Made by a program: the position numbers and the translations under genes. The notes below the pieces were generated by a model. The model had not been told where the DNA came from. It ran no database searches and saw only the letters and a list, made by a program, of their open reading frames with translations. 35,455 nt of DNA from a virus. How positions within the stretch are numbered: the stretch's first letter is position 1; every line of letters begins with the position of its first letter. The stretch spans positions 1 to 35,455 of IMG/VR virus record IMGVR_UViG_3300032289_000690. One strand, given 5' to 3'. Shown here one piece after another: positions 9,297 through 28,644 of this stretch.

Positions 9297-10483
9297 GTGA
9301 ACGCTGGCCCGGAGGGATAATCTCTGCGACCGCTCCAACGGTTAGCACCTCTGCCGCGTCTGGTATTTGGACGATGGACCAAGCCAACTATTACATTGCA
9401 AACAATCAATGGCCTTTTCCGGGTGCCTCATATTTGTATGGTTGGGGTAGTAACAGTTCTGGCGAATTAGGAATATCAAATACTATTAATTATTCTTCCC
9501 CAAAGCAAGTTGGTTCAACAAACACTTGGTTGAATGTTGCGTCTGGGCAATATTGTTCGTTAGCAATAAAAAACAATGGAACTTTATGGTCTTGGGGCGT
9601 AAATTCGTCAGGTGAATTAGGGCTAGGAAACACAACCAATTATTCGTCTCCAAAACAAATTGGCGCGTTGACCAATTGGTCAAGCATATCTTTAAATACA
9701 TCTTCTTGTTTTGCTATTAAAACCGATAATACATTATGGGCGTGGGGCGCTGGCGGGAATGGCGCTTTAGGGTTTAATAACACAACAAGTTACTCGTCAC
9801 CAAAACAAGTTGGGGCATTAACCAACTGGGCTATTGTAGCCGCCAACGGGGCAACTACAATGGCAATTAAAACAGACGGTACGCTTTGGGGATGGGGGGC
9901 AGGTTTTAGCGGTCAACTTGGACTGGGCAATACAACCGCTTATTCTTCTCCGAAACAAATTGGTTCTTTAACAAACTGGTCAAAAGTTTCTTCTGGGTAT
10001 GCTTCAGCATCAACTCTTGCATTAAAAACTGACGGCACTCTTTGGGCTTGGGGTTACAACGGAGAGGGGCAGTTAGGTCTTGGCAATATAACAAATTATT
10101 CGTCTCCAAAACAAGTTGGTGCATTAACAACTTGGACAAGTGTTATTGCGTTTGCTAGAGCGTCAATGGCTATTAAAGGAAACGCATTATGGTCATGGGG
10201 AAGAAATACAACACACGGAATACTTGGGCTTGGGAATACAACTAATTACTCATCTCCAAAACAAGTTGGCGCATTGACTAATTGGCTGTCTTTATCCGGC
10301 GGCGCTTATTCCGCAATTGCAATTAAAACAGACGGCACGCTTTGGTCATGGGGGAGAAATAACAAAGGACAATTGGGGCTTGGAAACATTACAAGTTATT
10401 CAAGCCCTAAACAAATTGGCTCTTTGACTACATGGTTAAAGGCGGCTTGTGGTTATGTAAATTCGATTGCAATATCATCTTAA
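9293..10483 (+). CDS. RCC1-repeat (seven-bladed beta-propeller) tail protein 3
   Basis: The protein has 396 residues, starts in an ATGA overlap with the sulfotransferase fusion, and has TAGGAG before the ATG. The leader (GGIISATAPTVSTSAASGIW, then TMDQANYYIANNQWP) is a classic phage virion-anchor pattern. Seven RCC1-type repeats follow from about residue 45. Repeat phrases such as NTTNYSSPKQVGALTNW are almost identical to those in the two upstream propellers, so the three genes probably arose by duplication. It is probably a tail or fibre-tip component. Whether the three propellers assemble together or serve as alternatives cannot be told from sequence. Confidence 0.85.
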   Translation: MSERWPGGIISATAPTVSTSAASGIWTMDQANYYIANNQWPFPGASYLYGWGSNSSGELGISNTINYSSPKQVGSTNTWLNVASGQYCSLAIKNNGTLWSWGVNSSGELGLGNTTNYSSPKQIGALTNWSSISLNTSSCFAIKTDNTLWAWGAGGNGALGFNNTTSYSSPKQVGALTNWAIVAANGATTMAIKTDGTLWGWGAGFSGQLGLGNTTAYSSPKQIGSLTNWSKVSSGYASASTLALKTDGTLWAWGYNGEGQLGLGNITNYSSPKQVGALTTWTSVIAFARASMAIKGNALWSWGRNTTHGILGLGNTTNYSSPKQVGALTNWLSLSGGAYSAIAIKTDGTLWSWGRNNKGQLGLGNITSYSSPKQIGSLTTWLKAACGYVNSIAISS

Positions 10484-10502
10484 TTTCTTATAGGAGTCTT
10501 AA

Positions 10503-10913
10503 ATGACACATTTTGTTCGCGTTGTTAATGGTGAAATCAAAGATGTGTGGGACACCCCACCGGCAGAAGGTGTTGGCAACAACGGATGGCGCAATGCTAT
10601 TGAAGTGCGGCCAGCGATTATTGCTCACCGTCAGGGGTACACCGCGCACCGCTTTGACTTGAATGTAGACCCAGTGCAAATCATCTGGGACACCTACGAC
10701 ATTTCGGTTGACGACCGCAAGAACGGGATGAAGGCTAATGTTGGCTTTCAATTCCAGCAGGTTGTGATGGAGCAGGCCCGATTGCAGATGTCTCCCAATC
10801 CCAACGAGCAGTACGATGCGACGGCGGTTGAGACGGCGCGGCAGGCAATCTTCACGAAGCAAGCGGCAATTGACGCGGCAACCACTCACGATGAGTTGGA
10901 TGCGCTTCTGTGA
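10503..10913 (+). CDS. Tail-fibre-assembly-like / conserved phage protein
   Basis: The protein has 136 residues, with AGGAG eight bases before the ATG. The N-terminus FVRVVNGEIKDVWDTPP, followed by GWRNAIEVRPAI and RQGYTAHRFDL, is a pattern I associate with conserved proteins encoded just after tail fibres, some labelled fibre assembly chaperones. The C-terminal third (about 85-136) is predicted helical: TARQAIFTKQAAIDAATTHDELDAL. It is translationally coupled to the APS-kinase-like gene through GTGA. It is likely a tail accessory or assembly protein; no catalytic motif is seen. Confidence 0.7.
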   Translation: MTHFVRVVNGEIKDVWDTPPAEGVGNNGWRNAIEVRPAIIAHRQGYTAHRFDLNVDPVQIIWDTYDISVDDRKNGMKANVGFQFQQVVMEQARLQMSPNPNEQYDATAVETARQAIFTKQAAIDAATTHDELDALL

Positions 10914-11338
10914 AGATTCTGATCTGTGGACTTCCCGGTTCTGGCAAGACAACGCTCGCGCAGGCACTCATTAAGAGGTTGCGCGGGTACACGGTTGACT
11001 GGTTCAACGCTGATGCTGTCCGTGCGAAGTACAACGACTGGGACTTCAGCAAGGCTGGGCGGGAGCGTCAGGGCATCCGGATGATGTTGTTGGCGCAGAA
11101 TTCAACGGCGGAGTTTGTGATTGCGGATTTTGTTGCGCCGTATCCAGACGTTCGGGAGAACTTCAAACCGGACGTTTTGATTTTCATGGACACAATCAAG
11201 AACAGCCGTCACCGGGATACGGACAAGGTGTTCATTGCGCCGACAAACCCAAGTTTCCGAGTGACGGAGATGGACGCAGAGAAGTGGGCGCATATCATAG
11301 TTGACCGGATTCTTGAGCCAGAGTTTGCGGAAGTTTGA
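10910..11338 (+). CDS. Adenylylsulfate (APS) kinase-like P-loop kinase
   Basis: The start is GTG, overlapping the previous stop (GTGA); 142 residues. The P-loop GLPGSGKTT lies at 7-15. NADAVR (33-38) and DWDFSKAGRERQGIRM (43-58) match the APS-binding signature of CysC-type kinases (DxVR ... FSxxxR). DFVAPYPDVR (73-82) matches the conserved Ser/Asp-Phe-x-x-Pro-Tyr stretch. Near the end FIAPTNPSFRVTEMDAEKW fits the usual C-terminal block. APS kinase makes PAPS, the sulfate donor for sulfotransferases such as the one encoded 1.6 kb upstream. It is shorter than bacterial CysC (about 180-200 residues). An alternative is a small-molecule or nucleotide kinase of the same fold. Confidence 0.75.
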   Translation: MKILICGLPGSGKTTLAQALIKRLRGYTVDWFNADAVRAKYNDWDFSKAGRERQGIRMMLLAQNSTAEFVIADFVAPYPDVRENFKPDVLIFMDTIKNSRHRDTDKVFIAPTNPSFRVTEMDAEKWAHIIVDRILEPEFAEV

Positions 11339-11340
11339 TT

Positions 11341-11589
11341 GTGAACAAGTACCACATCAGGTTTAACACCAAGCACAACGGGTCGAATTTGGTGTGGCGG
11401 ATTTTTGAAAATGGCGTAGAGCATTTAGCGGCGGACGTTCGGGTGATTGGCGAAACTTTTACTGAACCTACGCAAGAGTGTGGCGAGACTAAATGGAACA
11501 TGGCTTGTCATGGGTACATGACAATTAATCGGGAAACTTTAACAGCAATTATTAAAGAGAACAAAAATGACGCTTCAACTTCCAATTGA
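11341..11589 (+). CDS. Small conserved phage protein (KYHIRFNTKH type)
   Basis: GTG at 11341 gives 82 residues (VNKYHIRFNTKHNGSNLVWR ...). An alternative TTG at 11335 would overlap the previous stop and add two residues; GTG is preferred as the more usual codon. The sequence is beta-rich and compact, with a C-terminal ETKWNMACHGYMTI. I have the impression that such proteins often travel with APS-kinase-like genes in phages, but no function is known. It overlaps the next small gene by 23 bases. Confidence 0.65.
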   Translation: MNKYHIRFNTKHNGSNLVWRIFENGVEHLAADVRVIGETFTEPTQECGETKWNMACHGYMTINRETLTAIIKENKNDASTSN

Positions 11590-12743: not shown

Positions 12744-13180
12744 TGGACCTCATCGGAATCGGGAGCATCATTGAGGGCGTTGGCAAGGTTGCGGGTGACC
12801 TCATCACAACGGACAAGGAACGCCTCGAAATGGCGTTGGAAGAGCGCAAGCTGGACTTGGAAGAGAAGAGGATTGATCAAGAAACCGGTTTGGCTCAGGT
12901 TGAGGTCAATAAGATTGAAGCGGCGAGTTCTAGCGTATTTGTCTCTGGCTGGCGTCCTGCTGTGGGTTGGGTTGGGGTTCTTGGCCTCTCTTACCAGTTC
13001 CTTGGGTACCCGATGATGCAGTGGCTATGGGCTTTCGGTCAGGGAGTCGATATAATTCCAAAGGAGCTGCATCCGCCGCCTGATCTAGACGTTGAGCAAC
13101 TCATGACTCTTCTTGCTGGTTTGCTTGGGTTTGGCGGCATGAGGTCTTTTGAAAAATCCAGAGGGGTGGCAGCAAAATGA
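12743..13180 (+). CDS. Holin of the three-TM (Holin_3TMs) family
   Basis: The protein has 145 residues. The N-terminus has a weakly hydrophobic helix (1-20), then a charged helix (about 23-60: KERLEMALEERKLDLEEKRI). The hydrophobic core VFVSGWRPAVGWVGVLGLSY (65-84) and the stretch to residue 99, then QLMTLLAGLLGFGGMRSFEK (119-138), match the phage 3TM holin family. The SGWRP and GLLGxGGxRxxEK phrases are diagnostic. It permeabilises the inner membrane for the endolysin encoded directly upstream (one-base overlap). Confidence 0.88.
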   Translation: MDLIGIGSIIEGVGKVAGDLITTDKERLEMALEERKLDLEEKRIDQETGLAQVEVNKIEAASSSVFVSGWRPAVGWVGVLGLSYQFLGYPMMQWLWAFGQGVDIIPKELHPPPDLDVEQLMTLLAGLLGFGGMRSFEKSRGVAAK

Positions 13181-13812
13181 CCGTCGCGGCAGTAATGACG
13201 TATGACTCGCTGGTCAACGACATCTCAACTTACCTTGAGCGCAATGATCAGGCGACGTTAGACAAGATTCCGCAGTTCATCATGTTTGCGGAACAAGTTC
13301 TTGCGTCCGAGATTAAGTTCCTTGGTAACTTGACGGTAGCTGACGGGACAATGACAATCAACAACCCGGTTCTAGACAAACCTGCAAGGTGGCGAAAGAC
13401 GGTATCGTTCAACGTTACTCTGGCTGGCGAGCGCTATCCGGTGTTCTTGCGCAAATACGAATACTTGCGCGAATACTGGCCAGACGACACGCAGACTGGG
13501 CTGCCTGCATTTTATTGTGACTACGACTACACCCATTGGCTCGTGGCCCCTACCCCAGCGGCGGCGTACTCGTTTCAGGTTCTGTATTACGAACGTAATC
13601 AGCCGCTGGACTCGGCCAATCAATCTAATTGGTTTACGCAGTATGCCCCGCAGGCGTTGCTGTACGGAAGCCTGCTGCAGGCTATGCCGTTCTTAAAGAA
13701 CGATGAGCGCATTCCGGTATGGGCGGCCATGTACGACAAGTCGATTGCATTGCTCAAACAGGAAGACCTAACTCGGGTCGGTGATCGTCAAACGGTGGTA
13801 AACGACTCATGA
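13177..13812 (+). CDS. Tail adaptor / tubular-A-like structural protein
   Basis: The protein has 211 residues with an ATGA overlap at both ends. The N-terminus is helical (YDSLVNDISTYLERNDQATL, IPQFIMFAEQVLASEIKFLG). A beta-rich core follows (ARWRKTVSFNV, YPVFLRKYEYLREYWPD). The C-terminal helix reads YAPQALLYGSLLQAMPFLKN (about 160-179). This resembles the T7 gp11 / head-to-tail adaptor class found next to the nozzle gene. Together with the gene at 764-1816 the phage would have two adaptor-like proteins, one of which may be a true head-tail connector. Confidence 0.75.
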   Translation: MTVAAVMTYDSLVNDISTYLERNDQATLDKIPQFIMFAEQVLASEIKFLGNLTVADGTMTINNPVLDKPARWRKTVSFNVTLAGERYPVFLRKYEYLREYWPDDTQTGLPAFYCDYDYTHWLVAPTPAAAYSFQVLYYERNQPLDSANQSNWFTQYAPQALLYGSLLQAMPFLKNDERIPVWAAMYDKSIALLKQEDLTRVGDRQTVVNDS

Positions 13813-15080
13813 GTTATAACTCGCCTTTTACGGGCAACGTGATCCAGCCAACGGATGTTGCTTATGCGTCCTACGCTCTAACGTCTACCACCGGGACCAT
13901 TCAACTTGAGTGGCCGCTGAACGGTAACGACACAGACTATGTTGCCGCACGGGTCATGCAGGTCAGCACGACCAGTACATCCTATGAATTGTGGATGCCA
14001 CCGGCCAATCAGGCGTCTGTAGGTCAGGATGCACTGATCTACAACACCGGTGGGGTCACGCTGACGGTCAAGTCATTTGGCGGGGCCAGTACGATTGTTT
14101 CCATTCCCTCGACGGGCGGAAGTGCGCAGTACATTTTTGTCACGTCTAACGCCACGACAACGGGGACGTGGGGCGTTATAGCGTTTGGTTCGACGACGAC
14201 CAACTCTAATGCTGCAACGCTTGCAGGGTACGGTCTGACGGCAATTGGAGCTACGTTAAATCAGTCTCAACCGGTAACGACATTTTCATCGAACTACACG
14301 GCAATTGCCTCTGATCGTGCCAACACGTATGTTTGGACGGGCGGTGCAGGTACGCTTACTTTGACCTCAGCGTCAACGCTTGGGGATAATTGGTTCTTTT
14401 TGGTCCGTAACGGCGGCACCGGAACTCTTGCTGTAACGCCGAGTGGCGGAAATTTGATTAATGGATCGGCATCGCTCGACCTACAGCCGGCTGACTCGTG
14501 CTTGATCTCAAGTTCAGGAACAGCGTTTTATTCTGTCGGTCTTGGCAAGAGCACCCAGTTCAACTTTACACAGCTTACAAAGGCGGTGACCTTTGCTGGG
14601 TCGCCTTATACGTTGACTTCAGCGGAAGCCGCCAACGTCATTCAGAAGTACACCGGGACATTGACCGGAAACGTGGTGGTGAACCTGCCGCAGACGATTC
14701 AGGTTTACTACATTACCAACCAGACAACTGGGGCGTACACGATTACGTTCCAGACCGGAGTTTCTGGTGGTGCTACTGCGGTGATTCCTTCGGGGCAGCA
14801 GGTCATTCTTTTGTGTGACTCTGTAAACCTTTACAACGCCTCAACAATTGCCGCAGGGGCTACGACGGTTGCGTTGTCTAATGGAACGGTTTCATCACCG
14901 TCCTTGAACTTTTCTTCAGAGAGCACGACGGGCATTTACCGGCCTGCTTCCGGGGAATTTGGCATTACGGTCCTTGGCTCTCAAGTGCTTAATGTGATTG
15001 CATCCGGGATTGCTGTGACCGGCACCGCGCAGATTGGTTCCGGGACTACTGGAGGGCTTGCCGGCGGGACGTTCACATGA
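13809..15080 (+). CDS. Tail fibre-like virion protein
   Basis: The protein has 423 residues, with ATGA overlaps on both sides. The N-terminus NVIQPTDVAYASYAL, the phrase QLEWPLNGNDTDYVAARVM and MPPANQASVGQDALIYNTGG (about 64-83) form a conserved virion attachment domain I know from podovirus genomes, next to nozzle genes. The remainder is Thr/Gly/Ser-rich beta sequence. The C-terminal STTGIYRPASGEFGI and GGLAGGTFT are typical fibre endings. It probably forms a short fibre or stopper attached to the nozzle. Confidence 0.75.
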   Translation: MSYNSPFTGNVIQPTDVAYASYALTSTTGTIQLEWPLNGNDTDYVAARVMQVSTTSTSYELWMPPANQASVGQDALIYNTGGVTLTVKSFGGASTIVSIPSTGGSAQYIFVTSNATTTGTWGVIAFGSTTTNSNAATLAGYGLTAIGATLNQSQPVTTFSSNYTAIASDRANTYVWTGGAGTLTLTSASTLGDNWFFLVRNGGTGTLAVTPSGGNLINGSASLDLQPADSCLISSSGTAFYSVGLGKSTQFNFTQLTKAVTFAGSPYTLTSAEAANVIQKYTGTLTGNVVVNLPQTIQVYYITNQTTGAYTITFQTGVSGGATAVIPSGQQVILLCDSVNLYNASTIAAGATTVALSNGTVSSPSLNFSSESTTGIYRPASGEFGITVLGSQVLNVIASGIAVTGTAQIGSGTTGGLAGGTFT

Positions 15081-17551
15081 CCGCTAAGGTTTTCCAGTTA
15101 GATACGAAGGCTGGCGTCCAGCGCGACGGCACTACGTTTGACAAGGACTTTTACGTCGGCGGACGTTGGGTTCGTTTTCAGCGCGGCCGGCCAAGAAAGA
15201 TTGGTGGGTATGCTGTGATGTCGGACCAACTGACCGGGCCAAGCCGCGGGGTTTGGGTAAATCCGAATAACGGTTTCAACCAGATCTTCAGCGGTTACAA
15301 CAACGGCCTGCAGGCGTTGTCGGTTGACAATAATGGTGCTGGCGCTGGGGTTACCAACTACACCTTGAACAACTTTACGGCCAACGATCTCAACCTGTGG
15401 CAGTTTGACGGGTTCTATGACATCGGTGGTTCTGGGGTTGCGTCGATTTTGGCGCACCCCGGACAGAACCTTGCTCAGACTGATGCGGTAGCCAACACTC
15501 CAGTTTTGATTGGGAACATCAACGGAACAACATTATCCCAAATAGGAACTTTTTCAACGGCCAACTCTTACCTGAACGGTACGGTTGACGTCACAATATC
15601 AACAACCAATTCATTGATTGGTGCCGGGCAGACTGTTACGGGAACGGGAATTCCTTCAGGGACAACAGTTTCATCCGTTACGGCAGCCAACGGCATACTT
15701 GGTTCAGTTGCGGTAACTGGGATAGCGGGGCAGTGTTCTTGTACGAGCACGTCTGGGTTGTTCATTGGGCAGACCGTATCGGTCACCGGAACTAACACAG
15801 GGACGGCTACGGGTATCACCTCTGGCACGACCTATTACATTATTGCCACCAACTACTCGACTACGTTTACTTTATCGGCCACGTCTGGCGGTGGCGCGAT
15901 TGTGACCACGGCGGGGACAACGACTGGTTTAATATTCACGATCGGCAACTACCAGAAGGTTACGTTGTCGGCGGCGGCTACTACGAGCGGCGCATCGACG
16001 TTGACGTACAACAACAATGTATCCGTGTCGGGCGGGGTGGTTACGCTGCACCCTTACGTCTTTGTTTACGGCAACAATGGGTTGATCAAAAACTGTGCCG
16101 CGGGTAACGCGCAGGATTGGGTATCAGCGGACGCTAACGAGGTCAACGTAGCGACCGGCAAGATAGTCCAAGGGTTACCAGTACGGGGTGGTTCAAACGC
16201 GCCTTCTGGCCTGTTTTGGAGTCTTGACAGTCTAATCCGAGTGTCCTACATCGGCGGCACCGGTACTCCAATTCAATACTGGCGCTACGACATTATTTCG
16301 AGCCAATCTTCGATTTTGTCGAGTCAGTCTGCAATTGAGTACGACGGGGTGTACTACTGGTGCGGTGTTGACCGGTTTCTGTTGTACAACGGTACAGTCA
16401 AAGAAATTCCAAACACGTTCAATCAGAACTACTTTTTTGACAATCTGAACTACAACCAGCGCCAGAAGGTTTGGGTTACGAAGATTCCGCGTTATGGAGA
16501 AATCTGGTGGTTCTACCCCAGAGGCAGTGCAACCGAGTGTACGGATGCCATCATCTATAACGTGCGCGAGAACATTTGGTACGACGCTGGTGAGGCGCTA
16601 GGTGCAAGAAGGTCCGCTGGATACTTCTCGCAAGTTTTCTCGCACCCAGTGGCGGCCGGATGGGATACCAGTACGGCAACGGCTGTATTCACGCAGTCAA
16701 TGTCAACGACGAGCGCCAGTACATTCATCAATCTGTCTACGTTCAATACGCAGGTTAGGATCAATCAAATTGTGTCCGGGACAAATATTGTTTCTGGGAC
16801 GACGGTCAGTGCAATTACGGCAAGTGCGATTCAGACGTTGGGTGCAATTACGGCCGGTTCTGGGTACACTGATGGAACCTACAACAACGTACCGTTGACC
16901 GGTGGGAGCGGAGCCAACGCTAGGGCTACGATTGTGGTTAGCGGTGGTGTGGTGACTTCTGTGACCATTACCTTGAGGGGGGCAAGTTACGTTATTGGAA
17001 ACGTACTGAGCGCCTCAAACACAAATCTTGGCGGCACCGGGGCGGGATTTTCTATCCCGGTTACTGCAATCTTTGCCCAAACCATCACTTTGTCGGTGGC
17101 TGCCTCGGGTACTGGGACGCAAGATTTGACGTTTAGCACTCCTCCAAATTTAATCTCAATGTGGCAGCACGAGGTTGGGGTAGATGCAATCGCCGAGCAA
17201 AACGTGGTTGCGATTGATTCTTACTTTGAGACCAGTGATCTTGGTTGGGTTGCCGGGGGACCCCCTGAGCCTTCGATGGTTGGAGAAAATCGCTGGTTGA
17301 GATTGGAGCGTATTGAGCCTGACTTTATTCAGAGCGGTGACATGACGGTGGTTGTGACTGGCCGACCGTTTGCGCAGAGCGAGGACGTTGATTCAGATCC
17401 GTACACGTTTGGTCCAGACACTGGCAAGGTTGACATGAGAGAGCAGCGCCGGGAATTAAGGTTGCGTTTTAGGTCAAATGTTGTCGGCGGCGACTACCAA
17501 CTTGGTAAACTTCTATTGAGTGCAGCGATTGGCGATGTGAGGCCGTACTAA
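15077..17551 (+). CDS. Tail nozzle-like large virion protein with Ig/beta insertions
   Basis: The protein has 824 residues. Conserved blocks are FDKDFYVGGRWVRFQRGRPR (about 22-41), YVFVYGNNGLIKNCA, a central propeller-like part (QYWRYDIISSQSSILSSQSA, YDGVYYWCGVDRFLLYNG, YGEIWWFYPRG) and a C-terminal FIQSGDMTVVVTGRPFAQSE followed by REQRRELRLRFRSN. This pattern resembles podovirus nozzle proteins (T7 gp12 / P22 gp10 class), which close the tail tube. Two Thr/Gly/Ser-rich insertions (about 150-335 and 520-705) carry GQTVTGTGIPSGTTV-like and GSGYTDGTYNNVPLTGGSG modules. The assignment is by pattern only. Confidence 0.75.
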   Translation: MTAKVFQLDTKAGVQRDGTTFDKDFYVGGRWVRFQRGRPRKIGGYAVMSDQLTGPSRGVWVNPNNGFNQIFSGYNNGLQALSVDNNGAGAGVTNYTLNNFTANDLNLWQFDGFYDIGGSGVASILAHPGQNLAQTDAVANTPVLIGNINGTTLSQIGTFSTANSYLNGTVDVTISTTNSLIGAGQTVTGTGIPSGTTVSSVTAANGILGSVAVTGIAGQCSCTSTSGLFIGQTVSVTGTNTGTATGITSGTTYYIIATNYSTTFTLSATSGGGAIVTTAGTTTGLIFTIGNYQKVTLSAAATTSGASTLTYNNNVSVSGGVVTLHPYVFVYGNNGLIKNCAAGNAQDWVSADANEVNVATGKIVQGLPVRGGSNAPSGLFWSLDSLIRVSYIGGTGTPIQYWRYDIISSQSSILSSQSAIEYDGVYYWCGVDRFLLYNGTVKEIPNTFNQNYFFDNLNYNQRQKVWVTKIPRYGEIWWFYPRGSATECTDAIIYNVRENIWYDAGEALGARRSAGYFSQVFSHPVAAGWDTSTATAVFTQSMSTTSASTFINLSTFNTQVRINQIVSGTNIVSGTTVSAITASAIQTLGAITAGSGYTDGTYNNVPLTGGSGANARATIVVSGGVVTSVTITLRGASYVIGNVLSASNTNLGGTGAGFSIPVTAIFAQTITLSVAASGTGTQDLTFSTPPNLISMWQHEVGVDAIAEQNVVAIDSYFETSDLGWVAGGPPEPSMVGENRWLRLERIEPDFIQSGDMTVVVTGRPFAQSEDVDSDPYTFGPDTGKVDMREQRRELRLRFRSNVVGGDYQLGKLLLSAAIGDVRPY

Positions 17552-17799
17552 TGGCGCAGGCCCTTGTTTATGATCCGAGGTTTCATACCTTTGAGACTTG
17601 GGCTGCCCTGATGTGTGAACAGTACGCGGCGCAGCAATTAGAGATTCCGACTCAGTTCACGGATTGGAAGACTTGGGGCAATGGCATCAACGCCATCGAT
17701 GTGTTCGCAAACGAAGCAATTCCGCACACCGACAATTTTGACAACTGGTACGACTGGGCTGCCGCCTTACTCGGAACTGTAAACCCATCCGCAGGTTGA
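17551..17799 (+). CDS. Small acidic virion-associated protein
   Basis: The protein has 82 residues, with a TAATG-type overlap with the nozzle-like gene. It is rich in aromatic residues (Trp, Tyr, Phe): FETWAALMCEQYAAQQL, FTDWKTWGNGINAIDVFANE, NFDNWYDWAAALLG. It is predicted mostly helical. Similar short proteins follow the nozzle gene in related phages. It may be a chaperone or a minor tail component; no known motif is seen. Confidence 0.75.
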   Translation: MAQALVYDPRFHTFETWAALMCEQYAAQQLEIPTQFTDWKTWGNGINAIDVFANEAIPHTDNFDNWYDWAAALLGTVNPSAG

Positions 17800-17800
17800 C

Positions 17801-20800
17801 ATGAATAGTTTCACGACTTCGCCCGAGTTTGTCAGAAATTACTTGACCAATGTTGCTGGGATTGATGCCAGCAACATGAACGACATGGATATGCTCGCCA
17901 AGGCGGTCGAGTTAAGCGGTGGCGACCGGGGTAGGTATAGCGGTGGTGAATGGTTTGACCCTGTTGCTTACAACGCCTCTAAAAATGCGTCTACAACCAC
18001 CAATGTTCAGCCAACCGGTGGGCTTTCCCAAGTCACAATGGAACAAACCCAACCGGGAACCACCGGTGGGCTTTCTCAAATTACAGCGGCACAAACTCAA
18101 CCTGAAACCGCTGGTGGACTTTCCGCTCTCAACCAAAACTATAATCCAAATAGCTACTACAATAACTACGATTATTCATATGGTGCCCAACCAGATTATT
18201 CAGGGCAATACAACCCCTCGGGAAATGGTCAGCTTGACTATGAGGCACAATACAATCTTCAAAAAGCTGCGCAGCCTAGCTACGAAGCAAAATATAATTT
18301 AGCAGCTAACAAACAGCCTGATTATTCCAACTTTAATTCTAACAATCCTGCTTACAATCCTGCTTACAATCCTTTGGCAGAGTATTCTCAAGCAGGCAAC
18401 GCGGCTGGAACAGGAAATGCTGCTACACCCAAACAGGCGATTATAGGAAGCGGCGACCAAAAATCAGATGCCGTTGGAAAATCAACAGGAACAACCGGGG
18501 AAACTGCAGAAACCGAAAGTCAATACACAAATGTTGCGGGTTGGGATCCCGCAACTGGAAAATGGTTTAATAATTTTAAACCCGGGACTGCTGAATACGA
18601 AAGGGAAGAAAGCCGAAATAACGAATACCTTCAATACAAAGACCCAAATTCGGATCGTATTGCCATTGATTACACCATGGGAAAAAATTTGTTCCCAAAG
18701 TGGGATCCTGCGTTTTACACCGATTATAACGATTATTTGGGCAAAGCAAAAGAATATGTAGATAGGTATGTCCCCAAAGACGCAAACGGAAATTATGTAC
18801 AAACAACCAATCCCGGTGACTCAAGAACCACTCTGGAACAGATTTATGATCAACTAAAGCCCGGCGGGGGATGGGATCCTAGAGCCGATTATATTCAACA
18901 GCAATTAGGCGACTTAAATCCAGCAACAGAATCTATTGGTAAAGGCCTTGCTCAGCGAGGTCTTGGAAGTGTTACGGATATTGGCGTAAGGCAAGTTGAA
19001 CAGATAGTACCCGGAGTTTCCTACAGCGAATATACTATTCCGGATCAAACCGTTTTAGTAAACGAGTTTTATAACAAAAAAACAGGAGAACTGATTGACC
19101 CTAACTGGGTTGGTGTAATTCCAAACGGGACCGCTGGTGTTCAAGGCGGGGACGTTCGCTATGATTTGGATACGGACGAAAATGGAAATGTAACTTTTAA
19201 ACAGTCTTTCAGCGAAAAATCCGCGGGTTTCCTTTATGGAACCCCGGTCGGCGAGGCGCTGAGGTTTATTGCAAAGGTTTATCCTGTAACTGCGCCGTTT
19301 GCGTATGCTATGGATGCTGGCCGAGCGTTGGGAAAGGGCGACGCACTTGGATTTGCAATAAATGCCGTTGGAGGCATGACTTCCGGAATAGAGTCCGGCC
19401 TTTTGCCAACAACTGACGCGGCTGGAACCGTATCAACCCTTAATACTGCAAAAACGGCTCTTCAAGTAATGAAGGCCGCTGAAGACAAGGATTGGGCTTC
19501 GGTTGCGTTACTGGGGTCTGGTTTAGCTGGGACTGGTAACACTCCAATTGGAAATACAGGATTTACGGTTAGTGATGTTGGAAAGTTTGCTGCAATTGGG
19601 ATGGGTGTTGCGAATGGAAATTTTGGGGCTGCGTTTGTTGGTGCGGGTCAGTATATAAACAGCCCTAATCTTGAATTGGCTGGCAGGGCACTTCAACTTC
19701 AAAGTGCTCTTGAAAATTGGGAAAAGACCGGTCTTATTACTGGGGTTCTTGAAGCCAGTTCAAACTTTGCAAGAACGGCTTCAAAAGTAACTGGGGCAAA
19801 CGCAGTTACCGCGCCAACTACAGGTACGACCAAAGCTGATGCCGGGACGGGTGAAACAGTAGCTTCTACAACATATCCATATACGGACAACAATGGAGAT
19901 ACATGGGTAGATGCTAATACTAAGATTTCCGCAGCTACAGCGGGGCCTGATGCTGCAAGAATGGTTGCAAGTCTAACCAGTGTGTTCCAAGAAGCTGATG
20001 AAAATCCAGAGCTTGCCCAAGCGCTTACTGAAATTCAAAGAGCCTACGGGGCGGAAAACCAAGAAGCCTTTTTAGGAGCAATTCTTCCGGGTGTTGTTCG
20101 CGCAGGAAGCGCCGGCCTGTCTGTTGCAGCCCAATCTCAATTAGGCCAACGACTTATTCAAATTGCACAAGATCCAAAAACCTTAGACCGGACTATTGCT
20201 GCAGCAACATCCCTTGGGTTAAATGGTCTGGCATTGTATATGTTTGATCAAAGCATGGGGCGCGGCATATCGCAAGACGCTCGTCATCAAATGCTAATGG
20301 ATCAGTTGGCAGCAATTGACGATCCAGAGAAAAAAGAAAAAGCAAAACAAGACTACGAAGTTCTTTTTTCATTGAATCCACAAACTTTGCCAACTGTAAA
20401 TATCAGTGCATCAACAGCCGGCGGGACGACAACGACAAAAACAAAAATAGGATCTCAGAACGGCAAAAACGTCTACACAACCGCTTATGACCCGACTCCT
20501 CGTGATGATTACGGCGAGCCTCTTACATTGACGGGTGGTTTTGTTCCATTAAATCCAGATATTTATGACACAAAAACAAAATTAGACGACACAAAGCCTA
20601 CAACAACGCCGCCAGAAGACGAAGACGACACAACAGTTACAACAACGGATGTTAAACAAAAAACTCCAGAACAACTTGCAAAAGAAGTAAAATCAAAGAA
20701 TAGCTCTTCTGTTTCATCTCTTGCGAGCCAACTAATTCAAGGTGGCACCCCGGTTAGTGAAGCTGTTTCTTCTGCTGCGGCTACTCTTGGATTGACGAGT

Positions 20801-22744
20801 TCTGAGTACGATCCACCGGATTGGTCGCAGCCATCCGGTCAGGTTGGTGGGGCTGATGCAAAGAACGGAGTGCTAGGCGGTGGCACAACCGCAGGCGGCA
20901 CAACCGCCGGTGGCGATACTGGTGGCGGGGGCGGTGGTGGGGGCGGAGGCGGAGGCGGCGGTGGAACGCCATCGGGCGGCAGTCCTCCGGGTGGTAGTCC
21001 TCAGGGTGGCGGCCCCGGCGGTGGCACTCTTGGTGGTGGAAATGTTCCTAGTGGAGGGGTCCTAGGTGGAGGCAATCCGCCGGGAGATACTCCTGTAGAA
21101 AAAGTAACAAGAGACGCCGATTTTTTTATTTCTGCTGGTGATTCTCCTGCGGATGCGTGGACGAAAGCCCAAACCAAGAATGGTATTAAAGATGGGGACA
21201 TAGTTAGGCCAAATTGGGCTGTTCCCGGTGGCGGACTTCCGGGTGGTGGTTCTCCAAGTTCTAATACTAAACTTACTGATTTTGGACCTCCTTTGCCGGG
21301 TGTTGGAACAAGTGGCGCATCTGGGCTGTCGGGCACGTCTGGGGGCTCTGGTGCGCCCGGGGTATCTGGAACAAGTGGAACCTCTGGTGCTGCAGGAACT
21401 AGCGGAGCGTCTGGAAGCTCTGGCACTCCCGGGACTTCTGGAGCCGGTGGGGCATCAGGAACAAGTGGTACGTCTGGAACCAGCGGAACCTCTGGAGCTT
21501 TTGGAACGTCTGGAACATCAGGAACAAGTGGGGCGTCTGGAACCAGCGGGGCGTCTGGTGGGTCTGGAACTTCAGGAACCAGCGGAACGTCGGGGACGTC
21601 TGGAGCTAGTGGTACATCAGGGGTGTCTGGAGTTTCAGGGATTAGCGGCATTTCTGGAAAAAGCGGCACGTCAGGAGTTTCTGGCACCAGTGGAACATCC
21701 GGAACAAGTGGAACTTCTGGCGTTTCTGGGACAAGCGGCACGTCAGGAACAACCGGTACTACTGGAACGACCGGTACTACTGGGACCACGGGAACAACTG
21801 GAAAAACCGGGACCACAGGTTCTACCAGTACAAGCACTGGAACAAGTACAAGTACGTCAACGGGAACCGGAACAAGTACTTCTACGAGCACAAGCACTGG
21901 AACAAGTACTTCTACTGGAACCGGAACAAGCACATCGACGGGAACCGGGACAAGTACATCAACAGGTACTGGAACAAGCACCGGGACGGGGACTGGAACC
22001 GGCACTGGAACCGGTACTGGGACGGGGACAGGAACTGGAACTGGAACGGTCGTTCCTCCCCCTCCTCCTCCGTCTACGCCTTTTTCTGGATCACCTACAG
22101 CAGCAGCGGCTGCATCTGGGTCGCTTCCGCCTGCAGCGTTACTTCCATTGCTCAGAATTCTTGGAAAAAAAGAGCGTTTTGAAGGCCCTTTAGATAAAAT
22201 GCTGCAAGAGGCCGAGCAAATGTATCGTCAAAAAATGGACGAAGAATTTGATCAGCAGCAAACCAAAGGCACGCCAATGTCTCCTAACTCTTACTATTCA
22301 TATGGCAGCGGTGATTTGCCGAGCGTGGCGGATGTGCTTGGCTTTTCATCGGAGAACCAAGACTCTGACCAAGGATACAAAGCTGGTGGGCTGGCCACCC
22401 CGTTGTTTGCTGGCGGAGGTACGACGCGGTACGGAAAGTTCGCTGGCGGCGGGTTGAACATTGTTGAACACGCAGGTAAGCACCGAGTAGATTTTCGCAC
22501 TGGTGACGCTGTAACAGGGCCGGGGGATGGCCAAAGTGATGATATTCCGGCTATGCTTGCGGATGGTGAATTCGTGATTCCAGCGGACGTTGTATCTGCT
22601 TTAGGGAATGGATCCACAAAGGCTGGATCTGATGCGTTGTACGAGATGATGCACTCGATCCGGGCACGGGCGCGGAAGGGCCATCCGAAAAATCTTCCGC
22701 CGCCGGCAATGTCGCCGCTGGATTACATCAAACGGAGAAAGTAA
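17801..22744 (+). CDS. Giant 1647-residue virion protein with collagen-like tract
   Basis: The first 200 residues carry short repeats (GGLSQxTxxQTQP; PDYSxQYN/LDYEAQYN; NPAYNPAYNP). Residues about 470-670 hold hydrophobic Gly/Ala helices that could insert in membrane (GDALGFAINAVGGMTSGIES, FAAIGMGVANGNFGAAFVGA). Low-complexity linkers follow: 15 Gly in a row, 58 Gly-X-Y triplets (1169-1342), a Ser/Thr-Gly tract (1343-1416) and six Pro (1419-1424). The C-terminus has the phage-conserved GPGDGQSDDIPAMLADGEFV and IPADVVSALGNGS. It is encoded between nozzle and ejection genes, so it may be an ejection protein or fibre. It is not a typical tape measure protein, since it lacks long coiled coils. 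Confidence 0.85.
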   Translation: MNSFTTSPEFVRNYLTNVAGIDASNMNDMDMLAKAVELSGGDRGRYSGGEWFDPVAYNASKNASTTTNVQPTGGLSQVTMEQTQPGTTGGLSQITAAQTQPETAGGLSALNQNYNPNSYYNNYDYSYGAQPDYSGQYNPSGNGQLDYEAQYNLQKAAQPSYEAKYNLAANKQPDYSNFNSNNPAYNPAYNPLAEYSQAGNAAGTGNAATPKQAIIGSGDQKSDAVGKSTGTTGETAETESQYTNVAGWDPATGKWFNNFKPGTAEYEREESRNNEYLQYKDPNSDRIAIDYTMGKNLFPKWDPAFYTDYNDYLGKAKEYVDRYVPKDANGNYVQTTNPGDSRTTLEQIYDQLKPGGGWDPRADYIQQQLGDLNPATESIGKGLAQRGLGSVTDIGVRQVEQIVPGVSYSEYTIPDQTVLVNEFYNKKTGELIDPNWVGVIPNGTAGVQGGDVRYDLDTDENGNVTFKQSFSEKSAGFLYGTPVGEALRFIAKVYPVTAPFAYAMDAGRALGKGDALGFAINAVGGMTSGIESGLLPTTDAAGTVSTLNTAKTALQVMKAAEDKDWASVALLGSGLAGTGNTPIGNTGFTVSDVGKFAAIGMGVANGNFGAAFVGAGQYINSPNLELAGRALQLQSALENWEKTGLITGVLEASSNFARTASKVTGANAVTAPTTGTTKADAGTGETVASTTYPYTDNNGDTWVDANTKISAATAGPDAARMVASLTSVFQEADENPELAQALTEIQRAYGAENQEAFLGAILPGVVRAGSAGLSVAAQSQLGQRLIQIAQDPKTLDRTIAAATSLGLNGLALYMFDQSMGRGISQDARHQMLMDQLAAIDDPEKKEKAKQDYEVLFSLNPQTLPTVNISASTAGGTTTTKTKIGSQNGKNVYTTAYDPTPRDDYGEPLTLTGGFVPLNPDIYDTKTKLDDTKPTTTPPEDEDDTTVTTTDVKQKTPEQLAKEVKSKNSSSVSSLASQLIQGGTPVSEAVSSAAATLGLTSSEYDPPDWSQPSGQVGGADAKNGVLGGGTTAGGTTAGGDTGGGGGGGGGGGGGGGTPSGGSPPGGSPQGGGPGGGTLGGGNVPSGGVLGGGNPPGDTPVEKVTRDADFFISAGDSPADAWTKAQTKNGIKDGDIVRPNWAVPGGGLPGGGSPSSNTKLTDFGPPLPGVGTSGASGLSGTSGGSGAPGVSGTSGTSGAAGTSGASGSSGTPGTSGAGGASGTSGTSGTSGTSGAFGTSGTSGTSGASGTSGASGGSGTSGTSGTSGTSGASGTSGVSGVSGISGISGKSGTSGVSGTSGTSGTSGTSGVSGTSGTSGTTGTTGTTGTTGTTGTTGKTGTTGSTSTSTGTSTSTSTGTGTSTSTSTSTGTSTSTGTGTSTSTGTGTSTSTGTGTSTGTGTGTGTGTGTGTGTGTGTGTVVPPPPPPSTPFSGSPTAAAAASGSLPPAALLPLLRILGKKERFEGPLDKMLQEAEQMYRQKMDEEFDQQQTKGTPMSPNSYYSYGSGDLPSVADVLGFSSENQDSDQGYKAGGLATPLFAGGGTTRYGKFAGGGLNIVEHAGKHRVDFRTGDAVTGPGDGQSDDIPAMLADGEFVIPADVVSALGNGSTKAGSDALYEMMHSIRARARKGHPKNLPPPAMSPLDYIKRRK
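20921..20965 (+). repeat. Polyglycine-coding tract (15 Gly codons)
   Basis: Fifteen consecutive glycine codons (GGT/GGC/GGG/GGA mix) lie inside the 1647-residue protein. Codons are mixed, so it is not a simple trinucleotide expansion. It is followed by Gly/Ser/Pro-rich repeats (GGSPPGGSPQGGG) up to about 21090. It is probably a flexible linker. Confidence 0.9.
21305..22049 (+). repeat. Collagen-like Gly-X-Y tract and Ser/Thr-Gly tract
   Basis: 21305-21826 encodes 58 uninterrupted Gly-X-Y triplets: GTS is most common, with GAS, GVS, GIS and GTP mixed in, then a run of GTT. 21827-22048 encodes alternating S/T and G residues (TSTST, TGTGTG), followed by VV and six prolines. The triplets are real collagen periodicity, but only two of the Y positions are proline. 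The tract also gives long shadow open frames on both strands. Confidence 0.9.
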
Positions 22745-23725
22745 ATGTCATTTGCACAAGGGTCGCCGTTACCCGATGTTACGGAAAGGACGAATGTTAC
22801 TACTCCGGAGTGGTATACCAACCTAGCCACATCCCTATCCAACGCAACCCAAGGTGCTCTTGGAAGGACAGCGGCTCAGGGTGTTGCTGCGCAAGATCCG
22901 CTGCAGCAGCAGGCGTATGGTGCGACTGCCGCGGCGGCCAATGCTTACCAGCCGGGTCTGAACAACGCTACTGCTACGGCCAATCAAGCGGCGCAGGGGA
23001 TCAACTACGACCAGATTCAAAACTACATGGATCCGTACAGGAACAACGTAGTCAATGAAATGGGACGGTTGGCCAATCAGAATTTTCAGCGCAATGTTTT
23101 GCCGGGGATGGCTGGGCAGTTTGTTGGGACGGGAGGTTTAGGTAGCCAACGGTACGCCAACGCAATGGGGCAGTCTGCTGCGGACTTTCAGTCAAACCTG
23201 ACCGGTCAGCAGTATGGTGCCTTGTCTAAAGCCTACAACGATGCGGTTAATGCGGCCAGATCTCAGTCTGAATTGATGAACAACGCTGCGATTACTCAAG
23301 GCAATTTGGCCACAGCGGCACAGACAAATGCGTTGAAGGGCAATGAGGCCATGAACACGGCCGGTATGCGTCAGCAAGCGTATCAGCAGTCGTTGTTGGA
23401 TTTCCCGCTGTCTAACGCAACAAATGCTGCAAACGTGATGCGTGGCTACGCTGTGCCACAAAGCCAGACGTGGACGGGGCCGAAGGCTGGTTCTTACCAG
23501 ATGTCGCCGTTGCAGCAGATTCTTGGTGTTGGATCGTTACTTGGTTCGGCAAACTCCCAAAGCCTGTTGGGTCAAGGATTTAATAGTCTATTCTCTGGTT
23601 TGAATAGTTACTTGTCATCCAGCCCAATTGACTGGTCAAGGTTTACCGGAGGACTTGGTGTTGACACCGGTTCAACTGGAACAAATGTAACAAACCCTGA
23701 TGGCACTTCTGTTATCGAGATTTAA
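22745..23725 (+). CDS. Internal virion / ejection-type protein
   Basis: The protein has 326 residues, starts directly after the previous stop and has GGAG upstream. It is Ala/Gln/Asn-rich and helical, with PEWYTNLATSLSNATQGAL near the start, YDQIQNYMDPYRNNVVNEMG (about 98-117) and GTGGLGSQRYANAMGQS. I associate these phrases with a conserved phage structural family found downstream of neck genes, probably an internal or ejected protein. The C-terminal 80 residues are Ser/Gly-rich with SLLGSANSQSLLGQGFNSLF, possibly amphipathic. Confidence 0.75.
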   Translation: MSFAQGSPLPDVTERTNVTTPEWYTNLATSLSNATQGALGRTAAQGVAAQDPLQQQAYGATAAAANAYQPGLNNATATANQAAQGINYDQIQNYMDPYRNNVVNEMGRLANQNFQRNVLPGMAGQFVGTGGLGSQRYANAMGQSAADFQSNLTGQQYGALSKAYNDAVNAARSQSELMNNAAITQGNLATAAQTNALKGNEAMNTAGMRQQAYQQSLLDFPLSNATNAANVMRGYAVPQSQTWTGPKAGSYQMSPLQQILGVGSLLGSANSQSLLGQGFNSLFSGLNSYLSSSPIDWSRFTGGLGVDTGSTGTNVTNPDGTSVIEI

Positions 23726-23727
23726 TC

Positions 23728-25512
23728 ATGGCAGATGACGTTCAAACCTACCAAGACCAGCTTGCGAAACTGCTTCAGGGGCAGATGGCCGAGCGGCCAA
23801 AGCCATTCCTTGATCCACAGATGTTGGCGCTTGCGGAAGGGTTTCTTACACCCGGCCGCACTGGTAGCGCATGGGAGGCTTTAGGAACGGCTGCAGGCAA
23901 GCTCAGAACGGCTCAGGAGCAACAGCAGCAGATAGACCAAGCCGAATCAGCCAGAAAGATTCAGTTGGCCCAGCTAGGCCTGCAGATGGCCTACCAGAAG
24001 CGCAAGGAAGGCTTGTGGGATGAGTACGAGTCTGGGAATGCGCCCCAAGAAATGGCTCCTGCTCCGATGGGGCAGCCACCGATGCCGCCGATGGGTCAGC
24101 CACCTATGCAGCCGATGCGGGAATTAGCGGAAGGTCGTCCTGAAATAGATAGAGGGGCTATTCCGACTCCGGCTCAGGTAGGTCTGGTGCCGAAACCATC
24201 GTTTAAGTTTGGTATGAGCCCGGTCAATCCTCCTCCGGCTTCTCCTGCACAGCCCCCATCGGGTCTTGGGGGGGCACCTCAAGAACCACAAGGTGCGTTG
24301 CCAAGAGCCATGCCATCTCGTAATCAGTTTGCTGCAAGCGGAGTTCCAACAGCAATTCAAACAGAACTTGGCACTCAGATTGCACCACCGTTAAATGTTC
24401 CTGATGAAAAACAATTGGCTAGACTGGCTAGGATGGCCGGAACAGATCTTGCAACTTACCAAAATCAAAGGTTTGAACGAGAGTTAAAAAAGCGTCAAAA
24501 CCAGCCATGGGGCGTGTTTGATCCAGCATCGGGCATGGGGTACACCACTCCGTCTTCAAAAACGGCTCAGGTTCGACTTGGCCCTAACCCCGATGACGTC
24601 TACGAAGCCAATGAAGGATTGGTTGCCAATTACTATTCTGCGTACAACCGCGGTGACATAGCAAGAGCTTCGCATTTTAGTGATCAAATTAGAAATGTTG
24701 GACGCAATAACCCTCAATTTGACGAGTCTGGTAGGCCCGTTCCTCTAGAAAAAGTAAAGCCATATCCAACAGTTGCTGATACCAAAGCTCGTGAAGCCGA
24801 AGTTGCTTTGCAGCAAGAAATGGCAAAAAAAGAAGCAGAAGCAAATTTTAAAGCTCGCACCGAAACCATTCCAAACATGAAACAGGTTTCCAGAGAGCAA
24901 ATTGAAACAGCCACTCAACTAAAAGATTTGCTTAAAAACAATCCAATTGCATTTGGGCCATTAGCAAAGTCTGGCTTCCTTGCGGCTGCTACAAACTTTA
25001 TTGCTGGAAAGATTGTTTCTAAAGACCCCAGTGAACTAAATGGCATTGACGATTTGGTTGTTCAAATGACTGGAAAAGATGCGGACATTTCCGCTCGCCA
25101 GAACGCACGAGCGTTGATAAATAATGTTTTGTTTACGTTACGCCAAAAGAATCAAGGACAGGGCGCGTGGTCAAACGCCGAAAGTTCCGCGTTGGCTGCA
25201 ACTGGACCCGGACTTGGCGACACTCCGGAGGCGTTGCTCAACAAACTTGATATCCTCCGTTTGAACGGAATTAAACAACAAAAATATCTTGAAGATTACA
25301 AAGGGTGGCAAAAAAATCCTGTCAACAAAGGCAAAGGCTGGCTTAATTATTCTGAATCAGAAGATTACGAAAAAATCACAGAAGAATTTGACGAAAAATT
25401 AAAGTCAATATTCAAAGGTTCTGCGCCACGGCCATCTGCCCCTCCCGCGCCTCCTGCTCCTCCTGCGCCTTCTGCCCCAAAGGCTCCAAGAATCATTCCG
25501 TACACTCCGTAG
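23728..25512 (+). CDS. Internal virion / ejection-type protein, proline-rich
   Basis: The protein has 594 residues. The N-terminus FLDPQMLALAEGFLTPGRTG, then SAWEALGTAAGKLRTAQEQQ, is a module common in phage structural proteins. Residues about 110-130 repeat MGQPPMPPMGQPPMQPM, and more Pro-rich linkers follow to about 200. The C-terminal half is helical, with charged stretches (TKAREAEVALQQEMAKKEAE) and QNARALINNVLFTLRQKNQG. The end is PAPPAPPAPSAPKAPRIIPY. The organisation of three long helical genes after the nozzle fits the ejectosome of podoviruses, but no lytic transglycosylase motif is seen. Confidence 0.72.
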   Translation: MADDVQTYQDQLAKLLQGQMAERPKPFLDPQMLALAEGFLTPGRTGSAWEALGTAAGKLRTAQEQQQQIDQAESARKIQLAQLGLQMAYQKRKEGLWDEYESGNAPQEMAPAPMGQPPMPPMGQPPMQPMRELAEGRPEIDRGAIPTPAQVGLVPKPSFKFGMSPVNPPPASPAQPPSGLGGAPQEPQGALPRAMPSRNQFAASGVPTAIQTELGTQIAPPLNVPDEKQLARLARMAGTDLATYQNQRFERELKKRQNQPWGVFDPASGMGYTTPSSKTAQVRLGPNPDDVYEANEGLVANYYSAYNRGDIARASHFSDQIRNVGRNNPQFDESGRPVPLEKVKPYPTVADTKAREAEVALQQEMAKKEAEANFKARTETIPNMKQVSREQIETATQLKDLLKNNPIAFGPLAKSGFLAAATNFIAGKIVSKDPSELNGIDDLVVQMTGKDADISARQNARALINNVLFTLRQKNQGQGAWSNAESSALAATGPGLGDTPEALLNKLDILRLNGIKQQKYLEDYKGWQKNPVNKGKGWLNYSESEDYEKITEEFDEKLKSIFKGSAPRPSAPPAPPAPPAPSAPKAPRIIPYTP

Positions 25513-25524
25513 TAAGGATCGGCC

Positions 25525-26682
25525 ATGGCAACTAGAAACGTAAAACTGCCGAATGGCGACATTGTGTCTGGAGTGCCAGACAATGTGACTGATGAAGCTA
25601 TTTTTGCAAGGTACAGCAAACCGGCTGAATCAAAGGATGACGGACAAAAGCCTTCAAAGTTGCTCAATTTTTTGTTGGAAGAGCGCGAAGCAATTCGTAG
25701 AAGGATTGATGACGGGGATACGGATGTTGGCCAACCAGACTTAGACATTATTGAGCGCAAGATAAGGGAGGCCAAAGGGGAGCCTCCTATTGAAACGCCC
25801 AAACTTACGCCACAAGCTGTTGAAGACGGAGCGCCCCCATCGACTGGCCCAAGTTTGGAAGCTATGCAGGATGATGCGGCCAAACGTCAAGTACTCCAGC
25901 AAATGGAGCAACAACGGGCCGCGAGTCAGCCGGAACAAGACCGTCTGCTTGGCCAAATATTGGGAGGTACTGTAGGTGCCGGCGCTGGAGCGGCCATGCA
26001 AACCAACCAACTGGTTCGGGCTGGGATCAACGCCTTGCGTCAACCACCAGCAGCACCACGGATTGAACCTACACTTGATGGCCCGTTGACATCTGGCCAA
26101 AAATGGCTGAAAAACTACGCTGGGCATACAGACGTAAACCCTAATGTCACGAGCGTCCCTGAAGCTGCTGCGTTGCATAAACGTCAAAAGGTTGGCCACG
26201 GCAAAATTACAAGCCGCATCAGCGAGATGTATCCGCAGCGCCCGGGGCAGCCTAATTCAATTTTTGAGCGTATGGGTCCCAACCCTGAACCACCTGCGTC
26301 CCCGCCTATGGCTACGCCCCGTACAAGGGCTGCGCTGGACGCTGTGACTGACACCTTTAAAGCCGCAACCCAACCGTTTGCCGCGGCAAGTAGGGTTGGA
26401 ACTCAGGTTGTTCCGGCTTTAGGAATGCCGATTGCTGGGATTGGAGTTGGCGGCGGCTTGGCTGACGTTGCTACTGGAATACGACAAGGCGATTCCGAAC
26501 GTGCTGCTCTTGGCGGCGCTGAAACGGCTGGTTCTATAGCGTCACTGATTCCAAAGCTCGCAAGGCTTGGCATACCGTTAACGGTAGCAATTGAGGCATA
26601 TAGAGCATTGAAAGACCCAGCCGACCGTATGCGTCTACACGAGATGATGTTCGGCCGTACCGAGCCTGACAAGCCTATTTAA
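25525..26682 (+). CDS. Internal virion / ejection-type protein, last late gene
   Basis: The protein has 385 residues, with AAGGA before the ATG. The N-terminus KLPNGDIVSGVPDNVTDEAI (6-25) resembles the start of many phage structural proteins. Charged helices follow, then Gly/Ala-rich hydrophobic stretches: GQILGGTVGAGAGAAM (about 148-163) and GMPIAGIGVGGGLADVATGI (about 299-318). These could enter a membrane during DNA ejection. It is the final gene of the late operon; its stop lies within the end of the convergent gene, and a terminator follows 50 bases downstream. Confidence 0.72.
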   Translation: MATRNVKLPNGDIVSGVPDNVTDEAIFARYSKPAESKDDGQKPSKLLNFLLEEREAIRRRIDDGDTDVGQPDLDIIERKIREAKGEPPIETPKLTPQAVEDGAPPSTGPSLEAMQDDAAKRQVLQQMEQQRAASQPEQDRLLGQILGGTVGAGAGAAMQTNQLVRAGINALRQPPAAPRIEPTLDGPLTSGQKWLKNYAGHTDVNPNVTSVPEAAALHKRQKVGHGKITSRISEMYPQRPGQPNSIFERMGPNPEPPASPPMATPRTRAALDAVTDTFKAATQPFAAASRVGTQVVPALGMPIAGIGVGGGLADVATGIRQGDSERAALGGAETAGSIASLIPKLARLGIPLTVAIEAYRALKDPADRMRLHEMMFGRTEPDKPI

Positions 26683-28023: not shown

Positions 28024-28644
28024 TCATGTAATGTTGTCATACCCAAGGGTAGAACCCCACAATTGATCTGCAAAGCAGTGCCCGGTTCCTTCGTATCTAA
28101 CCCCTGCGTAATGAGTTTTAATGAAAAAATAAGAAGGGTAAATTGTCAAAGGATACTGTGTTTCTCGAAACACATTAGTTAGGTGGGTTGGCCCAACAGA
28201 AATCCAAGCCCTTTCGTTAATTACCGTTTCTTTTTTGTTCAAACCTAGAATGCACTCCCTAAAAAATTTGTTTTTTGGAACAGATCCAATTGTTCCGCAG
28301 GAAATTAAATTCGGCCTGATGAGTTCTTGCTCCCAACAAACAAAGGCTTCCGGAGCCAAAAGCCAATCTTCAAGTGGCTTTAGGCAAACAGAATCTGCAT
28401 CTAGTGTTATCCCTCCTTCGTTGTAAAGTATTTCATAGCGCATGATGTCTGCAACACCATTTAACTCCCTCGAAAACATATCTTTCATATGCCTTGAGTT
28501 AACCCAATGGTAGTCGTTTAATTCTTGATTGCCCCAAATTTTTATTTGGTAGTCTGGGTTTTTGATGCGCCAAGTGTTGATGCAATTATCCGGACGCTTA
28601 GACTCGTCTCCAACCCAGACAAAGTGCAATACCTTTGGTATCAC
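28024..28644 (-). CDS. Glycosyltransferase, GT32 / sugar-binding DXD family
   Basis: The start is GTG in a GTGA overlap with the HTH gene; 206 residues. The N-terminus IPKVLHFVWVGD is the classic opening of GT32-like (OCH1/Gly_transf_sug) enzymes. ADIMRYEILYNEGGITLDAD (65-84) contains the DXD metal/nucleotide-sugar motif (Asp82, Asp84). A C-terminal HCFADQLWGST lies near the end. The family transfers sugars, often mannose- or galactose-type, to glycans. Its place in the early operon suggests it acts before or during replication, perhaps on host envelope glycans or on phage DNA or protein. The acceptor is unknown. Confidence 0.88.
   Translation of the reverse strand: MIPKVLHFVWVGDESKRPDNCINTWRIKNPDYQIKIWGNQELNDYHWVNSRHMKDMFSRELNGVADIMRYEILYNEGGITLDADSVCLKPLEDWLLAPEAFVCWEQELIRPNLISCGTIGSVPKNKFFRECILGLNKKETVINERAWISVGPTHLTNVFRETQYPLTIYPSYFFIKTHYAGVRYEGTGHCFADQLWGSTLGYDNIT

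Follow-up and report, generated by a model that had tools for sequence, protein, structure and literature searches.

The open reading frame at positions 17801–22744 was analyzed in the context of the window, i.e. the complete 35,455-nucleotide stretch of DNA (positions 1 to 35,455 of IMG/VR record IMGVR_UViG_3300032289_000690), which derives from a short-tailed freshwater phage. The parts of the encoded protein and the flanking genes are compiled in Table 1. Relatives' loci are designated by L-numbers (L002, L059, etc.), and the window is used as the reference stretch.

Table 1. Position of the 17801–22744 gene, of its parts and of the neighbouring genes in the window.
Feature	Position	Strand	Remarks
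SU10-type adaptor	13177..13812	+	PF24175, 85 bits
Fibre-like protein, syntenic	13809..15080	+	phrog_12796
Nozzle protein of short-tailed phages	15077..17551	+	profile matches PDB 9nwi_Y, 8zkm_E, 8zkk_O
Small conserved ORF	17551..17799	+	synteny
Gene for 1647-aa ejection/tape-measure-like protein	17801..22744	+	ATG start
N-terminal and middle part, residues 1–1000	17801..20800	+	similarity comparison
15-Gly run, residues 1041–1055	20921..20965	+	
Anchor WAVPGGGL, residues 1139–1146	21215..21238	+	common to L002 and L059; variable spacer begins here
58 Gly-X-Y triplets, residues 1169–1342	21305..21826	+	
Ser/Thr-Gly tract, residues 1343–1416	21827..22048	+	counterpart to part of L002 (Gly-Thr)n
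Six Pro, residues 1419–1424	22055..22072	+	
Conserved C-terminal domain, residues 1460–1647	22178..22741	+	
Tape-measure-type motif GPGDGQSDDIPAMLADGEFVIPADVV, residues 1573–1598	22517..22594	+	
Ejection-type protein	22745..23725	+	15/26 homologues match phrog_4287 'DNA ejection protein'
Syntenic protein, no family assigned	23728..25512	+	synteny
Gene with homologues bearing transglycosylase, glucosaminidase or lysozyme domains	25525..26682	+	homologues elsewhere

The order adaptor, 13809 gene, nozzle, small ORF, 17801–22744 gene, 22745 gene and 23728 gene is conserved across 81 relatives' loci, in which the adaptor was found 51 times, the 13809 gene 67 times, the nozzle 70 times, the small ORF 74 times, and the 22745, 23728 and 25525 genes 79, 53 and 8 times, respectively, many loci being too short to hold all of them. 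A block consisting of adaptor, nozzle, small ORF, the 17801–22744 gene, an ejection-type gene and a lysozyme-domain gene is typical of short-tailed phages, and the position of our gene after adaptor and nozzle, together with its lysozyme-domain partner, corresponds to that expected of a podophage ejection gene. This gene order agrees with the structural role previously proposed for the product. The nozzle profile matched solved nozzles with E-values of 4e-12 to 3e-10, one of these structures (9NWI) being assigned to Pseudomonas phage Pa223 in a table of the corresponding publication (PMC13299392). For the product of the 22745 gene, an AlphaFold2 model reached a pLDDT of 69, and Foldseek returned no PDB fold under an E-value of 1 (best E 1.5). 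No tail-tube gene was recognised in the structural block beside the 17801–22744 gene, the neighbours being adaptor, nozzle and ejection-type genes. A homologue is also present in the cultured Caulobacter phage GB2A, where gp065 (580 aa), annotated as tape-measure protein, lies between the nozzle and transglycosylase genes, and portal and head genes were detected elsewhere in the genome; in the excerpted text of the Caulobacter phages' paper, a tape-measure gene is listed and the morphology is not stated (PMC11053796).

Outside this block, a second SU10-adaptor-like protein (29.3 bits) is encoded at 764–1816 of the window and includes an F5/8 type C segment at 22.2 bits, which is below the cut-off. 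Eight upstream and modification-gene queries gave no tblastn match in L002–L082, most of these loci ending short of the upstream genes. Cysteine accounts for 59 of the 126,710 residues of the 75 counted family members; at L084 (MW202545.1), the counterpart (8351–10270) and its neighbour (10274–11512) are very Cys-rich (36/639 and 33/412 residues, respectively), and two genes further on at that locus contain none.

Next to this conserved gene order, the protein itself is conserved mainly at its C-terminal end. The last 207 residues matched at least 600 IMG/VR stretches, of which the best 80 were kept, so that the C-terminus, noted initially as a conserved phage feature, is indeed widespread in phages. 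All 60 C-terminal domains compared matched several tape-measure PHROGs across the short GPGDGQSDDIPAMLADGEFV motif, and in the PDB comparison the Douge tape-measure protein was matched weakly (E 0.0016). In the PHROG and PDB searches, no named or solved ejection protein matched the product, nor did any needle or fibre outside the repeat. The AlphaFold2 model of the C-terminal domain alone (60 rows) was poor (pLDDT 61, pTM 0.24), and no fold search was therefore based on it. Conserved hydrophobic membrane segments were considered and dropped, since hydrophobic 19-mers (KD ≥1.6) occurred in 39 of the 75 members and in 36.6 when sequences were shuffled; a membrane segment is thus not supported. 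At the other end of the protein, residues 1–1000 have clear counterparts in L002 only, and weaker ones in L059/L060 and a few others. The N-terminal 1066 residues found no relative among 50,697 phage records and a single IMG/VR relative in the close-relative search.

Between these parts lies the tract that had first drawn attention to the gene. ORF reading and triplet counting confirmed the 58 perfect Gly-X-Y triplets of the 1647-residue protein, and the longest in-register Gly run obtained in 2000 shuffles of residues 1071–1440 was 11 triplets (mean 4.5). The X positions are occupied by Thr (34/58), Ala (10/58) and Val (5/58), the Y positions by Ser (44/58) and Thr (9/58), and the commonest triplets are GTS (26), GTT (7), GAS (6) and GVS (5). 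With two Pro and two Lys among 174 residues, the X and Y positions are not rich in Pro or charge, the properties associated with helix stability without hydroxylation. The spacer is made up of Gly, Thr and Ser, is nearly uncharged, lacks Cys and has one aromatic residue. The Ser/Thr-Gly tract and the six Pro reported downstream of the triplets were recovered as well, VVPPPPPP forming the spacer boundary also in L002, and the 15-Gly linker placed before the triplets exists, although it does not adjoin them but lies 113 residues upstream. Pfam Collagen (PF01391) scored 21.4 bits, under its cut-off of 27.2, and a match to phrog_1806 'collagen like minor tail' is confined to the repeat region (1218–1373). 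Two further ORFs overlap the repeat in other frames, at 21001–22005 (−, 334 aa) and 21228–22193 (+, 321 aa), and are taken for putative by-products of its codon make-up.

Comparison of the segment following the WAVPGGGL anchor in close relatives revealed that the spacer composition is kept and the collagen register is not. In the window, Gly mostly recurs with period 3 over 270 residues (87% G+T+S), whereas the period is strictly 2 in L002 (381 residues, 99% G+T+S) and 4 and then 2 in L059 (233 residues, 87% G+T+S). L002 (5343–10883) is the sister of the window gene, with 93% identity in the C-terminal part, and carries Gly at every second position and Thr at nearly all others. Alternating Gly-Thr at the same place argues against an importance of the collagen register in the window lineage. 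Exchange of the spacer is also seen elsewhere in the family: L047 and L051, with nozzles 93% identical and slot flanks 51% and 88% identical, hold (GT)n and LPPVEVIGKK repeats, respectively, and L048 and L049, with nozzles 96% identical and slot flanks 84% and 76% identical, hold RTX-like and helical AEAERLRQEEA-type repeats. L072 and L088, in turn, are 45% identical over the whole protein and both display the Gly-X-Y register, with 64 and 49 triplets; the survival of the register through a change in length suggests that it counts in that lineage.

Across the family, protein length ranges from 468 to 3264 aa with a coefficient of variation of 0.30 (n=75, i.e. 74 loci and the window, after removal of seven of the 81 relatives in which the ORF runs off the locus start), compared to 0.01–0.16 for the neighbouring genes. 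Low-entropy 60-mers occur in 52 of the 75 members and, in the seven neighbouring genes, in 0/46, 0/53, 0/70, 0/75, 1/72, 10/59 and 0/17; the last 180 residues are free of low-entropy stretches in all 75. The slot is filled by (GT)n, (GS)n, (PT)n, poly-Pro, QPEP, Ala/Glu helices, NVNPN, SSSPP, RTX-like (repeat judged by eye) or Gly-X-Y sequences. On a quick nozzle tree without bootstrap, which 69 of the 75 entered (six had no complete matching nozzle ORF), the spacer class changed 29 times, the classes resting on an arbitrary entropy threshold to which the apparent switch between L021 and L038 (88% identical) is due. Gly-X-Y required four changes for four rows on this tree, in which the branches of L072 and L063 are long. 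At least 15 Gly-X-Y triplets are present in four of 98 distinct relatives (four scans, deduplicated on the last 400 residues, window left out), which is no unbiased frequency since the scans were ranked by C-domain or N-part similarity. Natural length variants of the tract, whose search the initial annotation had proposed, do exist, with 64, 58, 49, 21 and 19 triplets.

Such hypervariability of position, length and composition, with many unrelated fillings, would also be expected if repeats had expanded almost neutrally in a linker able to accept any sequence. We consider this improbable in view of the codon patterns. In the Gly-Thr tract of L002 (379 residues, lag 2), mismatches amount to.01,.02 and.77 at codon positions 1, 2 and 3; in the window tract, compared one repeat apart, the values are.36,.29 and.75, and the tract draws on all four codons of Gly and of Thr and on both Ser codon boxes. 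The pattern of the protein thus persists although synonymous sites have reached saturation, which shows that the protein pattern of the tract is under selection and that slippage is not its sole cause. A further reading, derived from the initial annotation, is a surface fibre built from Thr-rich collagen and stabilised by the phage's own glycosyltransferases, to which the prevalence of Thr and Ser at the X and Y positions and a glycosyltransferase gene in the window would conform. Only one of the two glycosyltransferases held up (28024–28644, PF04488, 45.9 bits against a cut-off of 23); the N-terminal half of the second candidate, 7473–9296, is that of a sulfotransferase, and its C-terminal half matches GT family 9 only at 11.7 bits (cut-off 22). 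PF04488 is missing from all 13 relatives' records searched, which may be fragments and include the Gly-X-Y-bearing L027, L063 and L072; of the controls for this search, the window gave a signal and the 14 named genomes did not. Stabilisation by Thr glycosylation is further at odds with the predominance of Ser at Y, and display at the surface with the location of the gene between the nozzle and ejection-type genes and with the resemblance of the C-terminal motif to tape-measure proteins. Accordingly, the data support neither a triple helix nor surface display nor glycosylation, and we regard the surface fibre as very improbable.

A tail needle or central fibre does fit the gene order, although we judge it unlikely. 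Here, the product would form a trimeric plug or needle, with the conserved C-terminus docked in the nozzle and the remainder projecting from or filling the tail axis, the tract constituting a true triple-helical rod and coiled coils occurring elsewhere. The gene indeed occupies a slot between nozzle and ejection-type genes, and the P22 gp26 needle gene lies between the hub and ejection genes. Ala/Glu-rich helical spacers are found in several relatives, and the register maintained by L072/L088 despite their different lengths points in the same direction. Moreover, tape-measure proteins sharing the motif can be trimers, as described for Douge in the excerpted text of PMC13033339, and trimerisation is documented for collagen-like fibres of phages (PMC3368898, in part). 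Against this stand the Gly periods of 2 and 4 in the nearest sisters, which are impossible for a collagen helix, the RTX-like and Pro-containing spacers filling the slot elsewhere, a tract almost without Pro or charge, and PHROG and PDB searches in which, apart from the repeat, nothing matched a needle or fibre.

In a separate observation, the sulfotransferase of the window (7473–9296; PF13469, 62 bits, and PF00685) belongs to a fibre cassette that also encodes an APS-kinase-like P-loop protein (10910–11338; PF01583, 38 bits), and it is flanked by three RCC1-repeat (beta-propeller) proteins (5239–6369, 6376–7533 and 9293–10483). With both genes in one cassette, it is conceivable that the phage could in principle synthesise PAPS and use it in sulfation, as judged from these domain matches.

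Since dissimilar repetitive stretches occupy the same slot in relatives, we read the Gly-X-Y tract as an exchangeable spacer and not as a sugar-stabilised collagen fibre. We see an even chance that the 17801–22744 product is a tape-measure/ejection-like virion component in which Gly-X-Y is this lineage's filling of that spacer. Its N-terminal part and spacer would be variable and followed by a conserved docking domain at the C-terminus, which presumably sits within the virion in the portal-nozzle channel or on an internal core. The protein may leave the particle before the DNA, in a largely unfolded state, with the spacer serving as a tether; as an extended chain, the spacer's length and easy threading would outweigh any triple helix. 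More tentatively, and as a possibility we rate somewhat below even, a DNA-delivery protein of the family as a whole may have a dedicated polymer slot with exchangeable content. Each lineage would have its own repetitive chain, acquired through recombination in the conserved sequences at either end and subsequently maintained by strong selection on the protein sequence. Under this polymer-slot model, what is selected would be a physical trait such as contour length, flexibility or nozzle threading, instead of a fold.

There is precedent in phages for each of the three kinds of protein, collagen-like, tape-measure and ejection. Among the open-licence papers listed by our searches, none described an exchangeable polymer slot in a protein of the delivery block, and searches for collagen or low-complexity spacers in tape-measure or ejection proteins retrieved no paper on this family. 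Close relatives in which the main difference of this protein is the polymer in the slot represent natural swap experiments, which could make testable what the middle of a delivery protein needs: a fold, a length or an easily threaded chain. They also advise caution, in that a phage Gly-X-Y tract need not represent a collagen fibre in every case.

Among known systems, P22 gp26 resembles the window gene in its slot between hub/nozzle and ejection genes; there is no sequence evidence for this relationship, and the conserved end here is the C-terminus. EPclA of E. coli prophages likewise contains uninterrupted Gly-X-Y within a phage protein, but its tract is Pro-rich and accompanied by trimerisation domains, with a Tm determined as 42 C according to the excerpted text of PMC3368898, whereas the window tract has 2 Pro in 174 residues and its sisters lack the register. 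Phage tape-measure proteins such as Douge gp16 (PDB 8zdo), likewise long and variable in length, share the GPGxGxSDxIxAxLxxGEFV motif; part of PMC13033339 describes the Douge protein as trimeric, the C-terminus lying inside the hub lumen. In contrast to such tape-measure systems, the phage analyzed here is short-tailed, with a nozzle present and a tail-tube gene not recognised in the structural block, and the motif lies near the C-terminus instead of at residues 966 and 1412 of 1699 as in Douge. Unlike established ejection proteins, the 17801–22744 product gave no sequence match to its counterparts, and a membrane segment is not supported; its gene neighbourhood, however, is of the same kind as that of T7 gp14/15/16, P22 gp7/20/16 and crAss001 gp45. 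Ejection proteins are described as varying in size and showing domain mosaicism (PMC8954989, in part), and the crAss001 cargo protein gp45, according to the excerpted text of PMC10172136, binds the portal through one of its domains and presumably exits partly unfolded.
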